Source: Leptospiraceae bacterium (GTDB lineage Bacteria; Spirochaetota; Leptospiria; Leptospirales; Leptonemataceae). Taken from it: DNA of 64,000 bases. The translations under genes and the position numbers were made by a program. Numbering within the stretch: position 1 is the stretch's first letter; every line of letters begins with the position of its first letter. The DNA lies in contig BPKM01000003.1 in assembly GCA_026005135.1 (NCBI GenBank), forward strand, positions 434,001-498,000. Reading direction: 5' to 3'. The notes under the pieces were generated by a model that was given only the letters and a program-made list of their open reading frames with translations, searched no databases and was not told the origin of the DNA. Below, piece after piece: positions 23,307 to 36,511 of the stretch.

Positions 23307-24716
23307 TCATGTTTCATTTTGATTTAAATTTTTATGACCGTATTTTTTTATTATATGTATTACTTTGTTATGTTTTTCTTCGTTATAATCAAATAAAATA
23401 AAGATAAAACCTGCTATAATAAAAATAATACCTACTCCATAACCAAAAATATATGAAATTCTTTTAGCAATAATATCATTTATTAAATCAGGATTGGAAA
23501 AACCAATGATACTTAATAAAAAGCCAGAAATAATAATAGAAAAGGCACGAGAGATTTTAATACAGAATTTTAAGAATCCGAAAAAAAGACCTTCTCTTTT
23601 TATTTTTAATTTTAATTTTACATAATCATAATCTGCTAAATCAGCTATTAAAGTATCCAATAAAACAATAGATGCAACAAGTATTCCTCCAATAATAGAT
23701 GCAATAATTGGAAATAAAAGTTGTTTTTCTGGAAAGTAGGGATAAGAAAACATTGTACCTATTCCTAATAGGAATATAGCTAATATAACAGATCTTTTTT
23801 TGCCAATAATTTTAGCTAAATAAATCCATAATGGAATAGCCATAGTCCATATAATTAGAAATGTCAATAAAATCATAGAGATTTGTTCTTGATTTAATTT
23901 TAAAAAATATTCATAATAATATAAAGCAATTGTTGAATTTATACCAATAGCAATATAAGCAATAATATAACTGAGTATTAAAATAAATAAATATCTGTTC
24001 TGAAATAACGTTAAGAAATTTTTTAAAATTTTATATAAATGTTTTGTAAAATTATTATTATTATTATTAATTATATTATGAGTAAATTTATCATAATTAA
24101 AACCTACAGAAATGGAAATAAAACTACTACCGAAAATTAGAAAAAATAATATAAAACTTCTTAATAGAAATTCCTGTGTATTTTCCAATTTTAGAAATAC
24201 AGGTATAAGAATACCCGAAATTAATCCTAGATTACCCCAGAATAAACGAAAACCAAAAATTTTATTTCTTGTTAGAGTATCAATTGTAGCTTCTCCACAT
24301 AAAGCAGAATGTGGAACGGAGGATATTGTTAAAAATGTGTTTAAAGCTATATAACAAAATAATAAATAAATAAATTTGAAGATATCATTTTGATTTTTTA
24401 TGTAAGGATTAAATATTAACGAGATAAAGATTCCTGCAAAAAATGATCCAATTATAATGTAGAATATACGTTTTTTTATGTAAGTTTTTTTCTTCCAATT
24501 TATTTTAATAGGAAAATGATCAGAAATATATCCCATTATGGGATCAGATATTGCATCCCAAAGAATACCTATAGAAATAGCAATGCTTGCTAAAAATGGC
24601 TCTAATTCAACAATATCTGTATAATATTTTAATAAATAAAGCCTGATAAAAATTTCAATTATAAAATAACCATATTCAGCTGTTCCCAGAAATAGAATAG
24701 ATTTTTTATTTAACAT
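23307..24716 (-). CDS. MFS transporter of the GPH/MelB-like family
   Basis: The 469-residue membrane protein has about 12 hydrophobic spans and the MelB/GPH family stretch GILWDAISDPIMGYISDH near residue 50, typical of sodium-coupled sugar or drug symporters. The substrate cannot be assigned. A run of six asparagines (INNNNNNF, about residue 220) is encoded by an ATT-type triplet tract at 24053-24068 in the central loop. It is divergent from the first adenylate cyclase, and one copy of the candidate light operator lies between them. Confidence 0.85.
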   Translation of the reverse strand: MLNKKSILFLGTAEYGYFIIEIFIRLYLLKYYTDIVELEPFLASIAISIGILWDAISDPIMGYISDHFPIKINWKKKTYIKKRIFYIIIGSFFAGIFISLIFNPYIKNQNDIFKFIYLLFCYIALNTFLTISSVPHSALCGEATIDTLTRNKIFGFRLFWGNLGLISGILIPVFLKLENTQEFLLRSFILFFLIFGSSFISISVGFNYDKFTHNIINNNNNNFTKHLYKILKNFLTLFQNRYLFILILSYIIAYIAIGINSTIALYYYEYFLKLNQEQISMILLTFLIIWTMAIPLWIYLAKIIGKKRSVILAIFLLGIGTMFSYPYFPEKQLLFPIIASIIGGILVASIVLLDTLIADLADYDYVKLKLKIKREGLFFGFLKFCIKISRAFSIIISGFLLSIIGFSNPDLINDIIAKRISYIFGYGVGIIFIIAGFIFILFDYNEEKHNKVIHIIKKYGHKNLNQNET

Positions 24717-24744: not shown

Positions 24745-24774
24745 ATGTCAAATAATTTGTAAAAACATTTGACA
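24745..24774 (+). promoter_or_regulatory. Candidate operator, copy 1 (ATGTC-N20-TGACA)
   Basis: A 30-base element with arms ATGTC and TGACA separated by 20 bases. The right arm coincides with the -35 box TTGACA of the downstream cyclase promoter, so a bound protein would block RNA polymerase. Same arms and spacing as the copies at 27760, 33161 and 36482. It could also affect the divergent MFS gene. Confidence 0.6.
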
Positions 24775-24796
24775 AAAATGGGTTTGAAATTAATAT
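24769..24796 (+). promoter_or_regulatory. Strong sigma-70 type promoter of the DUF5939 cyclase
   Basis: TTGACA (24769-24774), 16 bases, TAATAT (24791-24796). Transcription should begin near 24803, which would exclude the ORF-track start at 24769 and the ATG at 24778 and points to the ATG at 24841. Confidence 0.6.
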
Positions 24797-24840
24797 TTTT
24801 TCAGTTGCCAAAAAAATATAAAAATTTTAATTTTTTGTAT

Positions 24841-26685
24841 ATGAATTTAAAAGAATTTTTATCATTATATCCATGGGAAAAAGAATATAATGTAAATCAA
24901 CTTAATTTACAAAATAATGAAAAACTGGATTTTTTATGGAATTTAAAACTGGAAATTAAGCCAGAAGAAATTTGGGATTATTTAGCTGATACATCTACTA
25001 CTAACAAGGAATTAGGTTTGCCACCAATGGAATTTAAAGAAGAAAATGGAATTTTAATGGGTAAATCTAAAAATGCTGGAATTCATTTAGAATGGAGGGA
25101 AGTCCCATGGCAATGGGAATATCCCAGATTTATTAAAAATGAAAGAATCTATATAAAAGGATTTGCCAGATATGTTCGTGCTATGTATCTTTTGGAGAGT
25201 GAAAATAATCATACAAATCTTTATATTTATTTTGGATGGATTCCTCGAAATATCTTTGGTAAAGTGATATTAAAAATCGGTATGCCAAAAATACAAAAAA
25301 AATATCAAGATTATTTACAATACCTGATTGAACAAATTAAATATAATAAGTTTATTTTAAGTAAAAGCTTAATCGATAAAAAACAAAAAGAAGAAATTTT
25401 CAATAAAATAGAAAATGTTTATAACAGAATTAATGATAAAGAATTAAATTTATATTATAAAACAATATGGAATTATTTATTAAATCAGGATAATAATTTT
25501 TTGTATCGAATTAAAATCAAAAAGATTGTAAAAGATCTAAATCTAAATTTTTATGATGTTTTAACGTTTTTTTTAAAATCTACAAAACAGGGTTTATTTT
25601 TATTGAGTTATGATATTATTTGTCCTCATTGTAAAGGTGTAAGAAAAGAACTTAATCATTTAGGCGAAATTCCCGAAAAAGAAAGTTGTGAAGTATGCGA
25701 AATTGATTTTGAATCTACTGGTTTTAATAATATCGAAATTACATTTAAAGTACATCCATCAATTTTCAAAGTAAAACAGGAATTTTATTGTGCAGCAGAA
25801 CCAGCTAAAAAGCCACATATTATTTTGCAAAAGAAAATAGAACCTAAAACTACTTATAAATTTTTTCTTCATTTTACTAATGATATTTATAGGTTGCGTT
25901 GGAAAGGTCAGAAACAATATATTATATTAAAAAAATGTCAAAATGCAAAAAAAGAATTAATTATTAACGATTATATTACAACAGATCAATATATTGAATT
26001 AGAAGATAATGCACAGATTATTATAGAAAATACTTCAGATAGTATAAAAGAAATTATTTTAGAATATATATCAGAAGATGAATTCTTTTTAAGACCTTAT
26101 GAATTATTTAATTTTCAGGGATTTCGAGATCTTTTTTCTGAAGAGGTTTTAAATACAAATATAAAATTGGACATAGGAATACAATATTTAATGTTTATCG
26201 ATATTGTAGGTAGTACAAAATTATATATAGAAAAAGGAGATGATTTTGCTTTTTATCAGGTAAAAAAATTTTTTGAATTTTGTTATGAAAAAATAAAAAA
26301 ATATTATGGAGCTGTGATAAAAACAATGGGAGATGCTATTTTTGCTTCTTTACCAGATGAAGAATCTTTAATACAGTGTGCAAAAGAAATATGGAATAAT
26401 TTTAATAATAAAGAAATCAAAATTCGTATAATCTTAAATAGTGGTAAAGTTTTTGCAGTAAATTTAAATACCGGAATTGATTATTTTGGAACACCTGTTA
26501 ATTTATTAGCAAAAATGGAAAAATATTTAAAAGAACAAGAAATAGCTATACCAGAACATCTTTATAAGAAAGAAAATATAAAAAAATATATAAATGATTT
26601 AGAATATCTAGGTATGGAAAATTTATCTTTAAAAAATGATGAGAACTTTATGTTTTATATATTTGGAAATTTTAAAATTTATTAG
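24841..26685 (+). CDS. Class III adenylate cyclase with SRPBCC and DUF5939 domains
   Basis: In order: an SRPBCC/START-like N-terminus (LWNLKLEIKPEEIWDYLADT...), a zinc-ribbon-bearing DUF5939 region (CPHCKG...CEVC), and a C-terminal class III cyclase domain. The cyclase has both metal aspartates (FIDIVGST and TMGDAIFAS), the adenine-selecting lysine before MGD and aspartate in IDYFGTPVN. The residue four after the conserved Asn is Lys (VNLLAK), where the transition-state Arg is expected. The track start at TTG 24769 lies on a consensus promoter, so ATG 24841 is preferred (614 residues). It ends one base from the BLUF cyclase on the other strand. The likely product is cAMP, or activity may be altered. 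Confidence 0.85.
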   Translation: MNLKEFLSLYPWEKEYNVNQLNLQNNEKLDFLWNLKLEIKPEEIWDYLADTSTTNKELGLPPMEFKEENGILMGKSKNAGIHLEWREVPWQWEYPRFIKNERIYIKGFARYVRAMYLLESENNHTNLYIYFGWIPRNIFGKVILKIGMPKIQKKYQDYLQYLIEQIKYNKFILSKSLIDKKQKEEIFNKIENVYNRINDKELNLYYKTIWNYLLNQDNNFLYRIKIKKIVKDLNLNFYDVLTFFLKSTKQGLFLLSYDIICPHCKGVRKELNHLGEIPEKESCEVCEIDFESTGFNNIEITFKVHPSIFKVKQEFYCAAEPAKKPHIILQKKIEPKTTYKFFLHFTNDIYRLRWKGQKQYIILKKCQNAKKELIINDYITTDQYIELEDNAQIIIENTSDSIKEIILEYISEDEFFLRPYELFNFQGFRDLFSEEVLNTNIKLDIGIQYLMFIDIVGSTKLYIEKGDDFAFYQVKKFFEFCYEKIKKYYGAVIKTMGDAIFASLPDEESLIQCAKEIWNNFNNKEIKIRIILNSGKVFAVNLNTGIDYFGTPVNLLAKMEKYLKEQEIAIPEHLYKKENIKKYINDLEYLGMENLSLKNDENFMFYIFGNFKIY

Positions 26686-27732
26686 TTATTTTAATTGTTT
26701 AATTTTTTGTATTAAATTATTATAGTTTAAATTTGATTTTAATTCATTATGATTTAAAGTAAATAATTGAATTTCTACTTGATTTTTTGTTACGTACTTT
26801 CCAATTTTTTTAAATTCATAAAATATTTTTTGATCTAATAAGGATTCATCAAAAATTAAGAAATAATTTGTTTTTCTCGTAATTGCTTGAATTTTTGCAG
26901 CAAGATTTACTGGATGTCCAATATAGGTATAATCTTTTTTATTTTTAGAACCAATATTTCCTTCTAATATTTTTCCTTTACTCATACCGAAACCAGCATA
27001 TAAATAATGGTATGGATGATTTTCTGGATAACTATTTCTCAATGTTTTTAATTGTTTCGATATTTCTATGACTGCATTTAGTGCATTATTTAAATAGTCT
27101 TGAGAGAAACTTCCTAAGAAACCATCACCTAACAGTTTTGAAACATTTCCACCATATTTATTAATAGTATCAATAGTAATTTCAAAAAATATTTCAAATA
27201 GATCATAAACTTGATTAGTATTGAGAATTTCTGTAAACGTTGTCGAAGCAAATATATCACCAAATAGAATTATTTTATCTTTAAATTGTGGTTTGTAATC
27301 TAAGGGATTTTCTCCTTTTTGAATCGTTTTTAATATAACATCTGAAACATATTTTTCCAGTAAAATCCAGCTATCTGTAATAGTATTTAACATATCAGTT
27401 AAAGGCTGGATCAGATAATCTTGTGATTCATCTAATATGACTGTTTTCATAGACCATTCCGAAAATTTTCTTTTTTCTATATTTTTTTCTACTTTTAAAA
27501 CAAATATATCTTTGTGTCTATTATCATTAAAAATAATATTTAATCGTTTATCTAAATTTCTCTCTGGACCTTCTATAATTTGATAGAATATATTTTTATA
27601 AGTAAATAATACACCAGTTAATTTATCTCTGGAATTATTTTTCTGCGAAATTTCTGCAATTTTTTCTATATCTTCTTTGGAAAGTGGTTTAGCAAATTTA
27701 CTAATATAGCTAACTCGTTTTAATGTATCCAT
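26686..27732 (-). CDS. BLUF-domain photoactivated adenylate cyclase (bPAC-like)
   Basis: The 348-residue protein matches the photoactivated cyclase bPAC of Beggiatoa in length and layout. The BLUF flavin domain (residues 1-100) keeps Tyr9 (VSYISKF), Asn32/33 (KNNSRDKLTG), Gln51 (FYQIIEGP) and Trp93-Met95 (FSEWSMK), the residues of the blue-light photocycle. A linker follows, then the class III cyclase domain with Asp159 (LFGDIFAST), Lys199 and Asp203 (SKLLGDG), Thr269 (KDYTYIG) and Asn276. The transition-state Arg expected after VNLAA is Lys280. So blue light would control cAMP production, with the Lys as the main doubt. It lies last in the carH strand cluster, after its own operator copy. 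Confidence 0.93.
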   Translation of the reverse strand: MDTLKRVSYISKFAKPLSKEDIEKIAEISQKNNSRDKLTGVLFTYKNIFYQIIEGPERNLDKRLNIIFNDNRHKDIFVLKVEKNIEKRKFSEWSMKTVILDESQDYLIQPLTDMLNTITDSWILLEKYVSDVILKTIQKGENPLDYKPQFKDKIILFGDIFASTTFTEILNTNQVYDLFEIFFEITIDTINKYGGNVSKLLGDGFLGSFSQDYLNNALNAVIEISKQLKTLRNSYPENHPYHYLYAGFGMSKGKILEGNIGSKNKKDYTYIGHPVNLAAKIQAITRKTNYFLIFDESLLDQKIFYEFKKIGKYVTKNQVEIQLFTLNHNELKSNLNYNNLIQKIKQLK

Positions 27733-27759: not shown

Positions 27760-27789
27760 ATGTCGATACTTTTTTGTATAGTTTTGACA
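27760..27789 (-). promoter_or_regulatory. Candidate operator, copy 2, before the BLUF cyclase
   Basis: Plus strand reads ATGTC-N20-TGACA; the minus strand begins TGTCAAAACTATA, nearly the same as copy 4 (TGTCATAACTATA). It fills most of the 57-base gap between the SRPBCC stop and the BLUF cyclase start, so the cyclase can probably be transcribed separately from the rest of the operon. Confidence 0.6.
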
Positions 27790-28236
27790 CTATTGATTAA
27801 AAATTTCTTCAATTCTGGTAAAACGATAATCAAAAATATCTTTTAATTTTTCTTTTACTAGAAATAAAAAGAAATCCGAAAAAGGAGAAAAAGGAAGTTC
27901 ATAATATACAATATCTTTCATTAAAACTCCATTATTATTAGGTAAAAACAAATGAGTATGGTGCCATAATTTATAAGGACCGATTTTTTGTTCATCAATA
28001 AAATATTCGAATTTTTTTATATGTGTAATTTCTGAAATCCATTTTAAAGGTATTCCCAAAAAAGGTTTAACACGATATTCAATTATAAGTCCTTCGTACA
28101 TTTTTTCTGGTAAATTGCTTATAATATCAAATCCTAAATAAGGAGGAGTTATAATTTTTAAATTCTTAGGGTTACTAAAAAAATCCCATACTTCTTCTAT
28201 AGAAGCTTTTATAAATTGTTCTTTTGCTAATATCAT
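27790..28236 (-). CDS. SRPBCC-family ligand-binding protein
   Basis: The 148-residue protein is a single SRPBCC/polyketide cyclase-like fold: it starts MILAKEQFIKASIEEVWDFF, then NPKNLKIITPPYLGF, and ends with IFDYRFTRIEEIF. Such proteins bind hydrophobic ligands and are regular members of photolyase/cfa clusters. The track start at 28350 overlaps the previous gene; the internal ATG at 28236 has AAGGA at a good distance and gives the family N-terminus, so I use it. The ligand is unknown; a lipid is an attractive guess given its neighbours. Confidence 0.85.
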   Translation of the reverse strand: MILAKEQFIKASIEEVWDFFSNPKNLKIITPPYLGFDIISNLPEKMYEGLIIEYRVKPFLGIPLKWISEITHIKKFEYFIDEQKIGPYKLWHHTHLFLPNNNGVLMKDIVYYELPFSPFSDFFLFLVKEKLKDIFDYRFTRIEEIFNQ

Positions 28237-28246
28237 ATATTTATCC

Positions 28247-28969
28247 TTATTTATATTTAAATATAATTTTAACATTATAGGCTTTATTATTTTCATCATA
28301 GAGATTGGAAATACCTGTATATTGTAATAGATCCTTTGATTCTTTATCATAATCTATATAAATTGGTTTAACGAGTAAGCGAAATACAAAATTATCTACT
28401 TCGAATATAAATCGTACAATTTTTTTATTATCTTTCTGATATTCTTTTATTTTATAAACTTTAAAAGAAATCAGAGTTAAACGACTTGGTACAGCAAATT
28501 CTATTTTTAATGTTTTGTTATTAAGCAATTCATCAAAATGATTTTGTATAAATTTATGGAATCCAGAATCCAATACAATGTTTTCTTTAAAAGGAAATAA
28601 TTTAGAAATATTTTTTTTATTATTTTCTATAAAATAAATTTTAAATTGATTTTTTTCGTACAAACTTCCTTCTTCATATCCATTTCGGAAATCTTTAAAA
28701 TGAAATAATGGTATCTGGCTATTTTTTGTATAATCCGAAATTTTTTCTGCAATTTTTTTATTTTCTTTATCTCTATATATGAGAATAGTTTTAATATGTT
28801 TATTATTGGAATAAAATTCTGTATGATTTTCTGTATAAAGAAGTTTATTAGTACTTATATCATAAGCATAACCAATAAATGTTCTTTGATGAGAAAAAAT
28901 TTGATTTCCCATAATAAATATTGCCGATATTAAAAAAATTTTAAAATATATTTTAATAGTTTTTTTCAT
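28247..28969 (-). CDS. Exported protein of unknown function in the cfa cluster
   Basis: The 240-residue product begins with a clear signal peptide (KIFLISAIFIMGNQIFSHQ) and continues as a mostly beta-type polar protein (RTFIGYAYDISTNKLLYTENH...) without membrane spans. I do not recognise a named family. It overlaps cfa by 17 bases and is followed by the SRPBCC gene after 10 bases, so it belongs to the carH operon and probably acts in the periplasm on the same membrane-lipid task. Confidence 0.75.
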   Translation of the reverse strand: MKKTIKIYFKIFLISAIFIMGNQIFSHQRTFIGYAYDISTNKLLYTENHTEFYSNNKHIKTILIYRDKENKKIAEKISDYTKNSQIPLFHFKDFRNGYEEGSLYEKNQFKIYFIENNKKNISKLFPFKENIVLDSGFHKFIQNHFDELLNNKTLKIEFAVPSRLTLISFKVYKIKEYQKDNKKIVRFIFEVDNFVFRLLVKPIYIDYDKESKDLLQYTGISNLYDENNKAYNVKIIFKYK

Positions 28970-30269
28970 AATTTTTATTTATTTTAAATTCTGTAGAATC
29001 AATAATATTAATATTTCTTGCTTTAGATAATACAACCTGTGATACATTTATATAACGGGAACGGAATCCTACTTCACAATAGGTAAGGTAATAAATCCAT
29101 TTTCTTATAAAATAATCATCAAAATTGAGTTGTTTTATTTTATCAATATTGTTTATAAAATTATCCTTCCATTGTTTTAAAGTTTTTGCATAACTAATAC
29201 CAAAACTTTCTAAATCATAAATACAAAGTTCAGAAACTTTATGTAATGATTTTAATACTTCTAAATGAGATAAAAGTTCTCCACCAGGGAAGATATGTTT
29301 TTTTATAAAATCAACAGATTTTAGATAATTTTTGTAATGAGATTCTGGAAAATTAATGTATTGTAAAACGACAATTCCATCATCTTTTAGCATTTCTGCA
29401 ATTTTTTTAAAATAAACATCTAAATATTTGTGTCCTAATGCTTCTGCCATTTCTATGGATACAATTCTATCATATTTACCAAAAACACTTGTGCTGAGTT
29501 GTCGGTAATCTAAGAAATGTACATTAATTTTATTATTTAATTGATATTGGTTGATAAGATTTTTTGTATATTCATATTGTTCTTTTGATATTGTAATTGT
29601 ATCAACTTTACAGTCATAATTTTCTGCGATATATTTAGCAAATCCACCCCATCCAGAACCAATTTCAAGAACTCTTAATCCGGGTTTTAAATTTAATTTA
29701 ATACAAATTCTTTCATATTTTTCTATTTGGGCATCTGTTAAATTATTAATATTAGGAGAAAAGACAGCTGAAGAATAAGTCATAGTAGAATCTAACATTA
29801 GTTTATATAGTTCATTGGATAAATCGTAATGTTTGGAAATATTTTCCTTAGCAATTTTTATAGTATTAGGTCTAAATAAATGTATGATTTTATTGTAAAA
29901 TCCTAAAATATTAATAAAAAATTGTTTTGTTCTGGAATAGCTGGAACCTGGATTATTTTCTGAATTATCTACAAACCATTCTAATAATCTGTATAAATCT
30001 GGCGTTTCGAAATAACCAAGAATAAAAGCTTCTGCAAAACCAATTCCACCAAATAATATACAATGTTTAAAAAAATATTCGTTTTTTACATAAATATAAG
30101 CAGGTATTTTATAATTTTCTTTGCCAATTTTAATATATTCCTGCTCATTTAAGAAAATATATAGAATTCCATTAGTCATATTTTTTAATGCTTTAATGAA
30201 TAAATATTGATATAAATTCTTTGGCTTTATATTTTGAATTTCTTTTTTCTTTTGTAATTGTAGTTCCAT
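28953..30269 (-). CDS. Cfa-like S-adenosylmethionine lipid methyltransferase (variant active site)
   Basis: The protein of 438 residues has the N-terminal lipid-binding region and SAM-binding domain (VLEIGSGWGGFAKYI) of cyclopropane fatty acid synthases. The catalytic surroundings differ from E. coli Cfa: TYSSAVF replaces the YSCGY cysteine region, MAEALG keeps the Glu of MFEHVG but not the His, and VLQYIN has Gln where LHTIG has His. This suggests a related but different methylation, as in the branched or furan fatty acid pathways that use Cfa relatives, rather than simple cyclopropanation. ATG 30269 has AGGAGG upstream and overlaps the DUF1365 stop (TGATG); the track's TTG at 30272 is too close to that site. 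Confidence 0.85.
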   Translation of the reverse strand: MELQLQKKKEIQNIKPKNLYQYLFIKALKNMTNGILYIFLNEQEYIKIGKENYKIPAYIYVKNEYFFKHCILFGGIGFAEAFILGYFETPDLYRLLEWFVDNSENNPGSSYSRTKQFFINILGFYNKIIHLFRPNTIKIAKENISKHYDLSNELYKLMLDSTMTYSSAVFSPNINNLTDAQIEKYERICIKLNLKPGLRVLEIGSGWGGFAKYIAENYDCKVDTITISKEQYEYTKNLINQYQLNNKINVHFLDYRQLSTSVFGKYDRIVSIEMAEALGHKYLDVYFKKIAEMLKDDGIVVLQYINFPESHYKNYLKSVDFIKKHIFPGGELLSHLEVLKSLHKVSELCIYDLESFGISYAKTLKQWKDNFINNIDKIKQLNFDDYFIRKWIYYLTYCEVGFRSRYINVSQVVLSKARNINIIDSTEFKINKNYEKNY

Positions 30270-31057
30270 CAATTCCTCCTTTTAAAATTTTGATTTTTTA
30301 ATATGTTATCGACTTCATTTTTTTTAAAATAGGGTATTTTTTTTATCCATAGTAATAGTGCATGCCAATGTATACCAATAATAATTTTTAATGTAACAAA
30401 AGGAAATTTAAATGTTTCAATTAAAATGGTTTTTGTATTTAATGGTTTTTTTATTCCAGACATAGATGCTTTTACATGATATTCTTTTTTTTCATTAAAA
30501 TATCCAGAATCTACCTTCATTAATAATTTATCTTCGGGTATATTAAATCGAAATAGAAGGTCTGTATCGTATTTTACAAAAGGAGAAACATAAAAATCTT
30601 TCTTAGTTTTATAGTAATAAAGATTATTTCTTTTTTGTGTTTCTTTTATGGGAACAAGAATGGGTTTTTGTTCATGAAATGTATTGTTTACTTCAGAGAT
30701 AATATAGATTAATTGTTTATTTTTAAAACAATAATAAAAACTTACTGGATTAAAAACATACCCAAGAAACCTTAAATTGGTTAATAAAAATACTTTATCA
30801 GGAATTTCTAATTGATTTTCTTTAATATAGTGCAATAGATTTTCTTTGATGGAAGAATAATTATCATAAAAATAAAAATGATCTTTATCATAAAGAGAAT
30901 AAAAATTTAATTTATTATAAGATAAAAAAGGAATATTATTTAATAAATCAATTTCATCTAAATCAATATAAAACATAAAAATTTTATATTTTAATAAATG
31001 CTGTTTTAGATATTCTCTTTTATGTATAATGGTTATTTCGTATATTCGGGAGTTCAT
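30269..31057 (-). CDS. DUF1365 family protein
   Basis: The 262-residue protein shows the DUF1365 marks: RFLGYVFNPVSFYYCF, SEVNNTFHEQ, KDFYVSPF, and a C-terminal HWHALLLWIKKIPYFKK. The biochemical role is unsettled, but the family is almost always next to cfa and an FAD-dependent oxidoreductase, as here. The start overlaps the oxidoreductase gene by 38 bases; it is kept because SRIYEITIIHKREYLKQH is the expected N-terminal motif. Confidence 0.93.
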   Translation of the reverse strand: MNSRIYEITIIHKREYLKQHLLKYKIFMFYIDLDEIDLLNNIPFLSYNKLNFYSLYDKDHFYFYDNYSSIKENLLHYIKENQLEIPDKVFLLTNLRFLGYVFNPVSFYYCFKNKQLIYIISEVNNTFHEQKPILVPIKETQKRNNLYYYKTKKDFYVSPFVKYDTDLLFRFNIPEDKLLMKVDSGYFNEKKEYHVKASMSGIKKPLNTKTILIETFKFPFVTLKIIIGIHWHALLLWIKKIPYFKKNEVDNILKNQNFKRRN

Positions 31058-32321
31058 ATTTACTTTTTTCTATGAAAACATTATTTTTAATTTTATTTAC
31101 AACTTCTAAAGAAGATAAAATACCATCTTCATGGAAACCATAACGAAAGTATGCACCACAGAAGTAAACTAAACCATTATCATTTAATTCAGATAACCTA
31201 TACTGATATTTAATAGCTTCTGTATCAAATACTGGATGTTCATATTCAATGATTTGATAAATTTTTTTATCATTGATATTTTCATATTCATTAATGGAAA
31301 CAAATAAATCAAATTCTATCCAGGGTTGTAGTTTTTTCATATAATAGGTAGTAGAAGTTTTAAAATCCTTTCCTATTTTATAATTCCAGGATGACCAGAT
31401 TTTTTTATCATAACACATTACATTACTATCTTCATGTAAAATAGCAATGTTTTTTTGATAATGAAATTTACTTAGAATTTCTTTTTCTTTTTCGCTTGCA
31501 TCTTTTAAAATTTTTAATGCTGTTGGTGTATGTGTTGCTATAATTGCAAAATCAAATTCTTGTTTTCTATTTTTTGTTAAAATTGTAATATTATTTTTCT
31601 CTTTATTTCGTATTACTTCTAATACAGGTTCATTTAAATAGTATTTAAAAGATGATTTTTGTAATACTTTTTTAATATAATTATAAGAGCCATTTTTTAC
31701 AGTATACCACTGATAATGTCCATTCACACTGGCAAGTCCATGATTTTTAAAAAAATGCACTAAGGTTTTTAAGGGAAAATCTAATATTTTTTGTGGATCT
31801 GTTGACCATATAGCAGAACACATAGGGATTAAATAGTTTTCACTAAAAAAAGTGTCAAATTGATATTCTTTTAAGAAGTCATTTATAGATATTGAATAAG
31901 AAATTTCTTTGTTATAGTATATATGAATTAATTTATTAAATCGTAAAATTTCCTTTAATAATTTATAAAATCGAATATTAAAAAAATTTTTTCTTTGTGC
32001 AAAAATGGTATTGATATTAGTTCCCGCATAATATAGATTTTTATTTTGATTCCAGACGGAAAAACTCATATTTGATTCTATAAATTCTATTTCTAATTCA
32101 TTAAAAAAATTTAATAGATTAGGATACGTATGTAAATTGAATACAATAAATCCAGTATCTACTGGTATAATTTTATTATCTCGTAAAATTTCTATAGTAT
32201 TTGTATGACCACCTAAATAATTTTCTTTTTCGAATAGGGTAATATCAAACTCTTTACTTAAATAATAAGCACATGCAATACCTGATATTCCACTACCAAT
32301 TATAGCTATTTTGGGTTTCAT
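31020..32321 (-). CDS. FAD/NAD-binding oxidoreductase, amine-oxidase superfamily (COG2907 type)
   Basis: The 433-residue flavoprotein starts with the Rossmann motif IAIIGSGISGIACAYYLS, followed by FEKENYLGGHTNT and DTGFIVFN, and ends with a conserved C-terminus around VYFCGAYFRYGFHEDGI. This is the oxidoreductase that accompanies DUF1365 and cfa in light- or singlet-oxygen-induced clusters. A substrate role in fatty acid or lipid oxidation is inferred from context. Its ATG overlaps the carH stop by 4 bases (ATGA). Confidence 0.93.
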   Translation of the reverse strand: MKPKIAIIGSGISGIACAYYLSKEFDITLFEKENYLGGHTNTIEILRDNKIIPVDTGFIVFNLHTYPNLLNFFNELEIEFIESNMSFSVWNQNKNLYYAGTNINTIFAQRKNFFNIRFYKLLKEILRFNKLIHIYYNKEISYSISINDFLKEYQFDTFFSENYLIPMCSAIWSTDPQKILDFPLKTLVHFFKNHGLASVNGHYQWYTVKNGSYNYIKKVLQKSSFKYYLNEPVLEVIRNKEKNNITILTKNRKQEFDFAIIATHTPTALKILKDASEKEKEILSKFHYQKNIAILHEDSNVMCYDKKIWSSWNYKIGKDFKTSTTYYMKKLQPWIEFDLFVSINEYENINDKKIYQIIEYEHPVFDTEAIKYQYRLSELNDNGLVYFCGAYFRYGFHEDGILSSLEVVNKIKNNVFIEKSKYELPNIRNNHYT

Positions 32322-33133
32322 TTCTTTTCCTTGTATTTTTTATTTTGTTGTAGCATTAGTCTATATCCATATCCACCAAAAAGAATATCTGTATTAGAAA
32401 TTTTTTGAATTTTTTTCTTTAATTTTTCCAATGCTTCTTTTTTCTGAGGTAATACAATACTAATACTTACTAATTTATAGTTATTTTGTTTTATTTCATT
32501 TAGTAATTCTTTTTCTGGAAGCATTCCTACAAATTTTGCTGGAATTTTATAATAGAGTAATTTTGCAAAATGTAATAATGCTCCTAATTCATGTGGATCT
32601 CCCGGAAATACAGCTACTGACCAGATAGGTTCTTTATAAAGATATAATTTTACAATTTTACTGGAAATATAATTATAGATCCATCGGGAAAATGTATGTT
32701 CTTCAGAAATGGTTATAAAATTTTTTTCCCATGCTTTGCCAGTTAATATAATTAAATTATGAATTTCTTTTAACCATTTTAAATAATGTTTTGTTTTATA
32801 AATTCTATCTAAATAATTTTTTATTTCTTTAAAATTATATTCAGAGATAGATTGAATAAATTGCATTTCTTTTGAATTAAATTCATTGAAGTAGATTTCT
32901 TTGGATAATATAACTTTTCGGGGAATCTTTAAAATTTCTTTTGGTGATTTTCCTTTTTTTATTTCATTTTTAAAAAATAATAATATTTTTAAATCTTCAT
33001 TATCATAATAATAATAACCATTTTTTCCTTTTTTAGGATTTAATATATGATAACGTTCCTGCCATTTTCTAATTCTTGCTGGACTTAATCCTGTAATATT
33101 AGATAAATCTTTAATTAAATATTTCATTTTCAT
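32318..33133 (-). CDS. carH: CarH/LitR-type B12-dependent MerR photoreceptor regulator
   Basis: The 271-residue protein has an N-terminal MerR helix-turn-helix (YLIKDLSNITGLSPARIRKW), a helical domain with the W-x9-EH motif that caps adenosylcobalamin (Trp135, Glu145, His146), and a C-terminal cobalamin domain with the DxHxxG motif (Asp179, His181, Gly184) and a GG near 253. All residues known to be needed for light sensing in CarH are present. The family represses in the dark as an AdoB12 tetramer and releases DNA in light. It heads the operon with the oxidoreductase, DUF1365 and cfa, and is divergent from phr with a candidate operator between them. Confidence 0.92.
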   Translation of the reverse strand: MKMKYLIKDLSNITGLSPARIRKWQERYHILNPKKGKNGYYYYDNEDLKILLFFKNEIKKGKSPKEILKIPRKVILSKEIYFNEFNSKEMQFIQSISEYNFKEIKNYLDRIYKTKHYLKWLKEIHNLIILTGKAWEKNFITISEEHTFSRWIYNYISSKIVKLYLYKEPIWSVAVFPGDPHELGALLHFAKLLYYKIPAKFVGMLPEKELLNEIKQNNYKLVSISIVLPQKKEALEKLKKKIQKISNTDILFGGYGYRLMLQQNKKYKEKK

Positions 33134-33160: not shown

Positions 33161-33190
33161 TGTCAAAACTTTTTTATTAACTATAGACAT
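33161..33190. promoter_or_regulatory. Candidate operator, copy 3, between carH and phr
   Basis: Plus strand TGTCA-N20-GACAT, which reads ATGTC-N20-TGACA on the minus strand; the AACTATA block of copies 2 and 4 recurs next to the GACAT arm. It lies 28 bases upstream of the carH start and 4 bases upstream of the phr -35 box, and the TTTTGACA end can act as the carH -35. A TTTGACA at 33193-33199 forms a second inverted pair with TGTCAAA at 33161. Confidence 0.65.
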
Positions 33191-33227: not shown

Positions 33228-34625
33228 ATGTTTCAGATATTCTGGTTCAGAAGAGATTTACGTTTAGATGATAATCACGGACTTTATCAAGCTTTAAAGC
33301 AAAATCAAACTACAATTCCTATTTTTATTTTTGATGAATATATTTTAAAAAATTTACCAGAAGAAGATAGACGAGTTTCTTTTTTATTTGATAGAATTAT
33401 TTCTCTAAAAAAAGAAATTGAAAATTGTAATTCTTCTTTATTGGTTTTATATGGTAAACCAGAAGAAATTTTTTTATTATTGTTGGAAAACTTTCCAATT
33501 TCTTCTGTTTATCTTAATCATGATTATGAACCTTATGCAATAGAAAGAGATAATAAAATTCAAATTCTTTGTAGAAAGAAAAATATAGGTTTTTATTCAT
33601 TTAAAGATCAGGTTATTTTCGAAAAAGATGAATTATTAAATCAAAAGGAAGAACCTTATAAAGTATATTCTCAATATAAAAAAGCTTGGTTTAAAAAGTT
33701 TGATTTACATCAATTAGAAGAATATCCTTCTAAAAAATATATCAAAAATTTTATTTCTTTAGAAATGATTTCAAAATATAAAAATGAATTTATAAAATTA
33801 TTATCTAAAGTAAAAAATATTTATGAAAGTTTAGATTACTTTGTTAATAAATTTCCTGAACCAGTTTTGAATAAAATGAATTTTAAAAAAACTTATTATA
33901 TCATGCCAGAAATTCATTTAGATCAAATTTTTTTAAAAGATTATAAAAATACACGAGATTTTCCTTATTTAAAAAGAGGAACATCTCATTTAAGTGTTTA
34001 TTTAAGATTTGGTTTAGTTAGTATTCGCGATATAATAAATAAATCTTATTTTGAATCAAAAACATTTATAGAAGAACTTATATGGAGAGAATTTTATATG
34101 TATATTTTATATCATTATCCTTATAGCGAAAATTTAGAATGGAATTTAAAATATCAGCATTTAAGAAAATACTGGAGAAATCCAGATCAGGACATAAATG
34201 CTAAAAAAGATTTTGAATTATGGTGTAAAGGTTTAACAGGTTATCCTCTTGTAGATGCAGGTATGAGAGAATTAAATCAAACTGGATATATGCATAATCG
34301 TGTTCGAATGATTTGTGCCAATTTTCTTGTAAAGGATTTACATATTGATTGGAAATATGGAGAACGATATTTCGCTTTAAAATTAATGGATTTTGAATTA
34401 GCTTCTAACGTAGGTAACTGGCAATGGTGTAGCGGGACAGGTGTAGATGCTGCCCCATATTTTCGCATTTTTAATCCTGTTTTACAACAAAAGAAATTTG
34501 ATCCAGAATTAAAATACTGTAAAAAATGGATTCCAGAATTAGGAACAAAAAAATATCCTAAACCTATGGTTGATCATAAGAAACAAAAGGAAGAATTTAT
34601 AAAACTTTTTACGATTTTTTCTTAA
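33228..34625 (+). CDS. phr: Deoxyribodipyrimidine (CPD) photolyase, class I
   Basis: Photolyase splits UV-induced pyrimidine dimers using light energy absorbed by FADH-. The 465-residue protein has the N-terminal antenna domain starting IFWFRRDLRLDDN and a C-terminal FAD domain with LTGYPLVDAGMREL, GYMHNRVRMICANF and ASNVGNWQWCSGTG. These are typical of CPD photolyases rather than cryptochromes. It is divergent from carH and convergent with cfa2, overlapping its 3' end by 17 bases. Regulation by light through the operator upstream is likely. Confidence 0.96.
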   Translation: MFQIFWFRRDLRLDDNHGLYQALKQNQTTIPIFIFDEYILKNLPEEDRRVSFLFDRIISLKKEIENCNSSLLVLYGKPEEIFLLLLENFPISSVYLNHDYEPYAIERDNKIQILCRKKNIGFYSFKDQVIFEKDELLNQKEEPYKVYSQYKKAWFKKFDLHQLEEYPSKKYIKNFISLEMISKYKNEFIKLLSKVKNIYESLDYFVNKFPEPVLNKMNFKKTYYIMPEIHLDQIFLKDYKNTRDFPYLKRGTSHLSVYLRFGLVSIRDIINKSYFESKTFIEELIWREFYMYILYHYPYSENLEWNLKYQHLRKYWRNPDQDINAKKDFELWCKGLTGYPLVDAGMRELNQTGYMHNRVRMICANFLVKDLHIDWKYGERYFALKLMDFELASNVGNWQWCSGTGVDAAPYFRIFNPVLQQKKFDPELKYCKKWIPELGTKKYPKPMVDHKKQKEEFIKLFTIFS

Positions 34626-35628
34626 ATAAATAATGAGCTATAAACCATTCATTCCCTTGATTGGTTTTAAAAAATTCTGCAACCGCAAGATAAAAGATAT
34701 ACCATCTATAATACCATAATAATGGATCATTATAATAATTTTTAAAAATATTTAAGATTTCTTTTTTATATTTTTTATGATTTTTTAACCATTCCATAGA
34801 TGTTTTATAATAATGGATTCCATTAACATGCCATTCTTTTTCAATTACTAAATGATTTTGAAAATAATGTAATAAATTAGAAGAAGGCATAATACCATTA
34901 GTAAAAAAATATTTTGACATCCAATCCGTTTCATCTTTTACTTCGTAATAATAACAAAATTGTTTATGTACAAAAATATGAACAAATAATAGACCATCTT
35001 TTTTTAAAAATTGAGAAATTTTTTTAAGTAATAATTCATAATTTCTCATATGTTCAAACATCTCAATAGAAACAACTCGATCAAATTTTTGTTTAATATT
35101 AAAATTATTCATATCAGCATTTATAATCTTTAAATTTTTTATTTTTCTTTTTTTTATTTGTTTTTCTATATATTCTTTTTGTAGACGGGAATTGGAAACT
35201 CCTACAATTTTAGAATCTGGAAAACGTTCTGCTAAATATAAAGAAAAAGAACCCCATCCACATCCTAAATCTAAAATGCTGTGCCCATTTTTTATCTCTG
35301 CTCGTTCTATATATAAATTTAACATATTTTTTTCAGCTTGATCTAAGTTCTCATTTTCATAAAAATAGCAACAACTATATTTTTTATATTTTCCTAATAC
35401 CAGATCAAAATATTCAAAAGGAAGTTCATAATGTTGTTCATTAGCTAAATCTGGTGTTAAAGCAATAGGAGATTGTTTTAGCTCCTGAACTTTATCCATT
35501 ATTTTTTTTTGATTTTTTTCTACATCCTTTTCATCTTCTGTTTTTAATCGTTTTTTATTTAATTTATTAATAATTATTCTTAAAGCAAAATCTGGAATCA
35601 ATCCCGTTTTTAATATGGTATCTTGCAT
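34609..35628 (-). CDS. Second Cfa-like SAM methyltransferase
   Basis: The 339-residue protein has a SAM-binding core (SILDLGCGWGSFSLYLAERF) and Cfa-like catalytic segments that stay closer to the classic residues than the first paralogue: KYSCCYF keeps Cys, IEMFEHM keeps Glu-His, and FVHIF keeps His. The C-terminus (AVAEFFKTNQGNEWFIAHYLF) resembles the coclaurine N-methyltransferase-like branch. It shares a short intergenic spacer with the upstream DUF1295 gene, and a GGAGA precedes its ATG. The pair is a known companion of phr/cfa clusters; the substrate may be a lipid, sterol-like molecule or amine. Confidence 0.85.
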   Translation of the reverse strand: MQDTILKTGLIPDFALRIIINKLNKKRLKTEDEKDVEKNQKKIMDKVQELKQSPIALTPDLANEQHYELPFEYFDLVLGKYKKYSCCYFYENENLDQAEKNMLNLYIERAEIKNGHSILDLGCGWGSFSLYLAERFPDSKIVGVSNSRLQKEYIEKQIKKRKIKNLKIINADMNNFNIKQKFDRVVSIEMFEHMRNYELLLKKISQFLKKDGLLFVHIFVHKQFCYYYEVKDETDWMSKYFFTNGIMPSSNLLHYFQNHLVIEKEWHVNGIHYYKTSMEWLKNHKKYKKEILNIFKNYYNDPLLWYYRWYIFYLAVAEFFKTNQGNEWFIAHYLFKKKS

Positions 35629-35644
35629 ATATATATCTCCTATT

Positions 35645-36454
35645 TTATTTTTTTAGTTTTTTATATAATTTATGTGGTAATGGTATTAATGGCGAAGTGT
35701 TTTCTATATAATTTTTATAATTTTCTCCTTTACTCGAAAGATTCTGTTCTTCTGTTGCAGGGATACCAGTAATTTTCAAGATAAAAAATAGTAATATAAA
35801 AAATGATACAAAGGCTACATAACCATATTCTAAGTTGATATGGTATAATCCAAAAGAAAACCATATAACAAGCTCAAAAAAATAATTTGGATGTCGGGAA
35901 TATTTCCATAAACCTGTTTTTAATGTTTTATTTTTATTGTTTGGATTTTTTTTAAAATAATATAAATGAAAATCTGCAATAGATTCTCCTATAAAACCAA
36001 TAATAAAAAATAATATTGCTATATAATGGTTGATTTGAATTTCATTATTTTGATATAAAGCTAAAAATAATGGAACACTTAAAATAACATTTGTAATTGC
36101 CTGAAATTGAAAAAATATAAAAAATTTTATATCTAAATGTTTTTTCCATTTTTCTCTTAATTTAAGATATCTTCCTTCTTCGGGTTTAAAAAGGATTCTT
36201 GTAAATAATAAATAAAATGCTAATCGAAAGCTCCATATAATAACCATTATATAAAATATCAAACTGATTTTTGATATTTCTTTAGTTGTATGTATCAAAT
36301 AAAAAGCTATTAAACTAAAATTAATGCTCCAGCCAAAATCAACTATTGCCATATTATTAAAAATTTTTCCCAGTATGAATAATATACTCATTACTATAAA
36401 ACACAATAATATTGTAATTAATACAATTTGTATTAAATGATTTTCTAAAAACAT
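35645..36454 (-). CDS. DUF1295 membrane protein (steroid 5-alpha-reductase-like)
   Basis: The 269-residue protein has about seven hydrophobic spans and the family marks VDFGWSINF near the start and WKYSRHPNYFFELVIWFSFGL near residue 190, the NADPH/isoprenylcysteine methyltransferase-like C-terminal motif. DUF1295 proteins are predicted lipid double-bond reductases or methyltransferases. It heads a two-gene unit with the second Cfa and has operator copy 4 upstream. Confidence 0.92.
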   Translation of the reverse strand: MFLENHLIQIVLITILLCFIVMSILFILGKIFNNMAIVDFGWSINFSLIAFYLIHTTKEISKISLIFYIMVIIWSFRLAFYLLFTRILFKPEEGRYLKLREKWKKHLDIKFFIFFQFQAITNVILSVPLFLALYQNNEIQINHYIAILFFIIGFIGESIADFHLYYFKKNPNNKNKTLKTGLWKYSRHPNYFFELVIWFSFGLYHINLEYGYVAFVSFFILLFFILKITGIPATEEQNLSSKGENYKNYIENTSPLIPLPHKLYKKLKK

Positions 36455-36481: not shown

Positions 36482-36511
36482 ATGTCTAATGTTTTTTATA
36501 TAGTTATGACA
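36482..36511 (-). promoter_or_regulatory. Candidate operator, copy 4, before DUF1295/cfa2
   Basis: Plus strand ATGTC-N20-TGACA. On the minus strand it begins TGTCATAACTATA, followed by an A-run, matching copy 2 at most positions. It lies 28 bases before the DUF1295 start and 62 bases before the divergent membrane-protein gene. Confidence 0.6.

Follow-up and report, generated by a model that had tools for sequence, protein, structure and literature searches.

A BLUF photoactivated cyclase with lysine at the transition-state arginine position, encoded in a LitR/CarH-type gene cluster of a spirochaete

Organization of the locus

The window, the whole 64,000-nucleotide stretch of DNA analysed here, has a GC content of 25.8% and belongs to an AT-rich genome of 3.4 Mb. 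Its central gene, whose coordinates had been given correctly in the original prediction, encodes a photoactivated cyclase (PAC) that is the sole BLUF protein found in the genome. The genes upstream of PAC share its strand: first two of unknown family, then those for a CMAS-type methyltransferase, a DUF1365 protein, an FAD-dependent protein and a MerR regulator of the LitR/CarH family. A photolyase gene is divergent from the regulator and is followed by a second CMAS-type gene and a DUF1295 gene (Table 1). On the other side of PAC, a DUF5939 class III cyclase gene ends directly beside the PAC stop codon; it too encodes Lys at the position of the transition-state Arg. Met25 (position 24841) is the likelier start of this second cyclase; the listed TTG (24769) falls inside a copy of a 29-bp palindrome that recurs across the locus. 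The CarH/LitR light cluster, the shared palindrome and the neighbouring Lys-type cyclase had all been missed in the original prediction.

Table 1. Coordinates of genes, codons and palindromes in the window
Feature	Position	Strand	Remarks
MFS_2 transporter	23307..24716	-	
Palindrome	24746..24774	.	MFS (29 bp from start)/DUF5939 cyclase intergenic region
DUF5939 class III cyclase	24841..26685	+	Convergent with PAC; listed ORF 24769-26685
BLUF photoactivated cyclase (PAC)	26686..27732	-	348 aa; ATG start; Pfam and fold
Lys280 codon AAA	26893..26895	-	Site of transition-state Arg (bPAC R278); alignment
His273 codon CAT	26914..26916	-	Asp in other PACs, Tyr in sister species; alignment
Palindrome TGTC-N21-GACA	27761..27789	.	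Putative operator; 28 bp before PAC start
186-aa protein	27790..28350	-	No Pfam match; last gene before PAC
Unknown-family protein, 240 aa	28247..28969	-	Conserved in LitR cluster of G017
CMAS/cyclopropane-type fatty acid methyltransferase	28953..30272	-	UfaM-like type
DUF1365 protein	30269..31057	-	
FAD-dependent amine-oxidase-like protein	31020..32321	-	UfaD-like type; type compared with PMC7380195
LitR/CarH-family MerR regulator	32318..33133	-	Wx9EH and DxHx2G; B12-binding type
Palindrome	33161..33189	.	Between LitR (27 bp) and photolyase (38 bp)
DNA photolyase	33228..34625	+	Divergent from LitR
Second CMAS-type methyltransferase	34609..35628	-	
DUF1295 (steroid 5-alpha-reductase-like) protein	35645..36454	-	
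Palindrome	36483..36511	.	Between DUF1295 (28 bp) and 8xMP gene (62 bp)

Domain architecture and active site of PAC

PAC consists of a BLUF domain (residues 4–96), linker helices (106–138) and a class III cyclase domain (149–326), which is the domain order of the bPAC type. Pfam matches both domains (BLUF, residues 4–96, E 2.4e-25; Guanylate_cyc, 149–290, E 1.9e-7), and the best matches in the PDB are OaPAC (E 2e-77) and bPAC (E 4e-74). Pairwise identity with bPAC, whose reference sequence was checked against 5m27, is 39.5%. The AlphaFold2 model has a mean pLDDT of 91.8 and a pTM of 0.80, and aligns with bPAC chains at TM-scores up to 0.87–0.89. Sequence and predicted fold thus bear out the earlier assignment as a bPAC-like BLUF-gated class III cyclase, for which flavin binding, dimerisation, catalysis and rate are predicted from sequence. 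A further Pfam match of the BLUF part, to TEX47 (E 1.2e-7), presumably reflects the BLUF-like fold of TEX47.

In a pairwise alignment, the offset of two residues from bPAC holds for every residue named in the original prediction. In the BLUF domain, Y9, N32, N33, Q51 and W93 correspond to bPAC Y7, N30, N31, Q49 and W91, and the flavin-switch set of Tyr, Asn, Gln and Trp/Met is complete (Y9, N33, Q51, W93, M95). In the cyclase domain, D159, K199, D203, T269, N276 and K280 align with bPAC D157, K197, D201, T267, N274 and R278. The metal-binding Asp pair (D159/D203) and the base-selecting pair (K199/T269) are intact; the Asn-Arg transition-state pair is incomplete, with Asn276 kept and Arg replaced by Lys280, just as had been proposed. 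A further change had been overlooked: the Asp at position 273 is lost, giving His in the window PAC and Tyr in the sister species.

Lysine at the transition-state position is rare among PACs: The BLUF-cyclase alignment that the original prediction had proposed as a check was made with about 50 sequences from spirochaetes, cyanobacteria, Bacteroidota and others, drawn from the PACs of relatives and a scan with one genome per species. Lys occurs at the Arg position in only two of them, the window PAC and its orthologue in the sister species, a metagenome-assembled genome named ‘Leptospiraceae bacterium SKW199’ (JAOACE01; G003). An Omnitrophota sequence (L127) has Ser and all remaining members have Arg, including every other spirochaete PAC sampled. 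Asp273, two positions ahead of Val275, is invariant across the compared PACs except in the same orthologue pair. Recurrence of Lys in the orthologue (L003/L061/L088) rules out a sequencing error at K280.

The broader statement that class III cyclases have Arg here was too strong. A census of individual loci found Lys in four of the 26 class III domains of the same genome: PAC, the convergent DUF5939 cyclase, L053 and L057, all of which keep both metal Asp residues, the base-selecting Lys and the Asn. Uniqueness of Lys among class III cyclases is thereby ruled out, and the literature searched yielded no direct report of a natural Arg-to-Lys change in this class. The genome also holds 13 matches to cNMP-binding domains, which could be cAMP readers.

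Expected effect of Lys280: The closest experimental guide is the R278A mutant of bPAC, which retains 1.7% of light turnover (1.6 vs 93 per min) and 2% of dark turnover (0.0012 vs 0.057), with a nearly unchanged light/dark ratio of 1330 vs 1630 (PMC8522238). Without the Arg, then, the enzyme is slower in light and dark alike while its gating is nearly preserved, and a milder loss would be expected with Lys because it retains the charge. By this analogy, Lys280 is a variant feature and no ground for excluding PAC from the bPAC type, since bPAC R278A stays a light-gated cyclase; the comparison suggests a slow, still light-gated enzyme. The original prediction had offered a changed rate, dark activity or product. 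A changed rate is plausible from the mutant; the mutant gives no indication of altered dark activity relative to light. Nothing points to a changed product, an idea that was dropped: K199/T269 are the same as in bPAC, and because this pair is unchanged, cAMP made from ATP would be expected of PAC.

Selection on the PAC gene

The two orthologues are 98% identical and differ by six nonsynonymous and eight synonymous changes; six or fewer nonsynonymous changes would arise under neutrality with P = 0.002. By this sequence comparison, PAC is under purifying selection. Its dN of 0.007 is the lowest among 11 genes compared with the sister species, but dS is low as well, and recent recombination could therefore contribute to the low dN. 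Within the cyclase domain, the orthologues differ only by L156I and H273Y.

Some relatives of the gene are damaged. The sister species has another PAC (L089; L062:9428-10507), 50% identical, in which the codon of the conserved BLUF Trp93 is TGA and the base-selecting Lys199 is Arg; judging by these lesions, it is probably a pseudogene. Since this copy is disrupted, the K280 copy is the intact PAC of that species. In the PAC of G035 (L117/L064), a TGA interrupts the frame near residue 14. From a BLUF-cyclase ORF in G008 (L021), about 80 residues are missing in frame (query 117–196), and with them the linker and the region of the first metal Asp.

A palindrome shared by putative light-response genes

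The palindrome was first spotted by comparing intergenic regions with those of the sister species, which retains all four copies of the window. Four copies compare with 0.19 expected, a count reached in none of 100 shuffles, and nine are present in the whole genome. All four are intergenic, although intergenic DNA makes up 7.6% of the window, and their spacing is constant at 27–29 bp before the starts of PAC, LitR, DUF1295 and MFS. One lies in the promoter region of the DUF5939 cyclase, which probably belongs to the same regulon as PAC. The significance is limited to the full dyad: the single half-motif TGTCAAAACTTTTTT has 24 matches vs 24.3 expected.

Five further genomes from three genera have an exact dyad before PAC; it lies 20–36 bp upstream in G046, G045, G005 and G017 and overlaps the presumed start in G047. 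Dyads also precede LitR genes in G001, G003, G005 and G017, and a version with one mismatch does so in G002 and G008. The palindrome is missing upstream of many other PAC genes of the class, and the 200 bp ahead of the cyanobacterial PACs never contain an exact dyad. Under a stricter definition, the palindrome was found at 13 sites in 48 genomes of the class, vs one for a reversed-pattern control. Nine of the 13 sites have a LitR, PAC or DUF1295 gene next to them; the neighbours of others include uvrA, a fatty acid desaturase gene and, some 300 bp away, a photoactive yellow protein gene. The uvrA site (L190; G001:C7:178987-179015), directly 5' of the gene, is in a relative from the same genus. 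The photoactive yellow protein homologue (L191:788-1207 in G031; E 7e-32), about 300 bp downstream of its palindrome, is followed by a gene for an AMP-binding enzyme.

The LitR/CarH regulator and its cluster

LitR, the sole recognised transcription factor of the cluster, aligns to Thermus CarH across both the MerR DNA-binding domain and the CarH-like C-terminal domain. Against the NCBIfam CarH model it scores E 4.5e-15 and 55.7 bits, far under the 400-bit cut-off. The Wx9EH motif, which is described as common to every CarH homologue studied (PMC8156234), is exact at residues 135–146 and kept in 21 of 21 homologues examined. The second B12 motif (DPHELG...SISIV...GG, residues 179–254) fits E/DxHx2Gx41SxV/Tx22-27GG only if the spacing is relaxed. 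The genome encodes a cobalamin adenosyltransferase. B12 photochemistry is predicted for LitR. In G005, G017 and G019, the PAC gene lies next to LitR or close to it.

The DUF1365 protein may be of the UfaO type. In furan-fatty-acid synthesis, UfaM and UfaD are of types that the CMAS and FAD proteins fit (PMC7380195), and the cluster probably contains furan-fatty-acid genes.

Interpretation

The reading we favour, and hold to be rather probable, is that PAC is a functional adenylyl cyclase of the bPAC/OaPAC family, slowed by Lys280, making cAMP and controlled by LitR through the palindrome. Its direct support comprises the sequence, the predicted fold, the residue census, purifying selection, motif statistics and conserved linkage. 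Replacement of the transition-state Arg by Lys280 would give a slower enzyme that still makes cAMP with its light/dark ratio kept, and a CarH/LitR-type repressor would control PAC transcription through the 29-bp promoter palindrome. Light could then act twice, by releasing the repressor, which would switch on the genes for PAC, photolyase and lipid protection, and by activating PAC to produce cAMP. More tentatively, and with odds that we place slightly short of even, leptospire-like spirochaetes may share a circuit in which a CarH/LitR repressor acts through the palindrome on a BLUF cyclase (in one relative, perhaps on photoactive yellow protein), yielding here a Lys-slowed, light-gated cAMP signal tied to photoprotection.

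The changes at positions 280 and 273 might instead mark relaxed constraint on a decaying or catalytically dead protein, at most a light-switched binding partner. Two conserved cyclase positions are altered in one orthologue, and the clade is fast-evolving, with in-frame stops in two close relatives (L089 and L117). However, both species carry an intact copy of the gene, amino-acid changes in it are fewer than expected and its dN is the lowest of the compared set, its metal, base and Asn residues are unaltered and its promoter element is conserved, so that we consider a dead enzyme unlikely. Lys280 might also be near-neutral, leaving bPAC-like rates, and perhaps be favoured by the AT-rich genome: AAA is the dominant Lys codon in this low-GC window, and the four Lys-type cyclases of the genome belong to different subfamilies. 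Yet PACs from the AT-rich relatives L095 (GC 0.26) and L089 (GC 0.29) keep Arg, which weakens AT drift alone as a cause, and Arg is otherwise near-invariant in PACs; a near-neutral Lys280 thus seems improbable to us.

Binding of LitR to the palindrome, proposed from sequence, is probable; that another regulator of the same genes binds it is doubtful, if a little less so than those two alternatives. The palindrome is a dyad, whereas published CarH sites are tandem repeats (PMC8156234), and in relatives it also adjoins uvrA and the desaturase gene. The published CarH/LitR operators (tandem 11-bp nAnnTnnACAn; T(G/A)TACA-N12-TGTA(C/T)A) have no exact match to it, with only the half-site TnnACA in common. 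This half-site nevertheless fits part of the CarH half-site nAnnTnnACAn, the palindrome lies 27–33 bp before LitR here and close before it in several genomes, as in autoregulation, and no competing transcription factor was recognised in the cluster.

Control of a BLUF cyclase by CarH/LitR, which is probable, is the most interesting aspect of the locus. With the shared promoter element, a link between B12-CarH and BLUF-cAMP, photoreceptor classes unrelated to each other, becomes testable; the element also suggests that the photo-oxidative stress response includes some spirochaete PACs. Because non-Arg PACs are rare in the sample, PAC is a natural test of Arg dependence in light-gated cyclases, and a low-turnover PAC with intact gating, as in bPAC R278A, is a goal of optogenetic engineering.

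Comparison with known systems

PAC has in common with bPAC (Beggiatoa) and OaPAC (Oscillatoria acuminata) the BLUF-cyclase architecture, the predicted fold and all catalytic residues but one. It departs from bPAC in having Lys for R278, His for D271, Leu for F198 and Tyr for H266, and, unlike these comparison systems, it is placed in a LitR/CarH-type cluster. No paper linking PAC with CarH/LitR was found, which is weak evidence given partial literature coverage. By their published names, TpPAC (Turneriella parva) and LiPAC (Leptonema illini) are PACs of the same wider spirochaete group; TpPAC turns over 5 per min in light, and LiPAC was inactive in oocytes (PMC8522238).

The Pseudomonas LitR/PplR/PmlR cluster (pmlR1 region) likewise combines a MerR-type LitR with a photolyase (PhrB), an FAD oxidoreductase and a UfaM-type methyltransferase (PMC9758184). 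No PAC is reported there, its operator is the N12-spaced sequence given above, and its LitR is of class II and B12-independent (PMC9758184), whereas the window LitR keeps Wx9EH. Light-dependent cAMP signalling in spirochaetes is also known from LprA of Leptospira kobayashii, which governs swimming (PMC9043183); its sensor domain is distinct from BLUF and LOV (PMC9043183), while the PAC described here senses through a BLUF domain.
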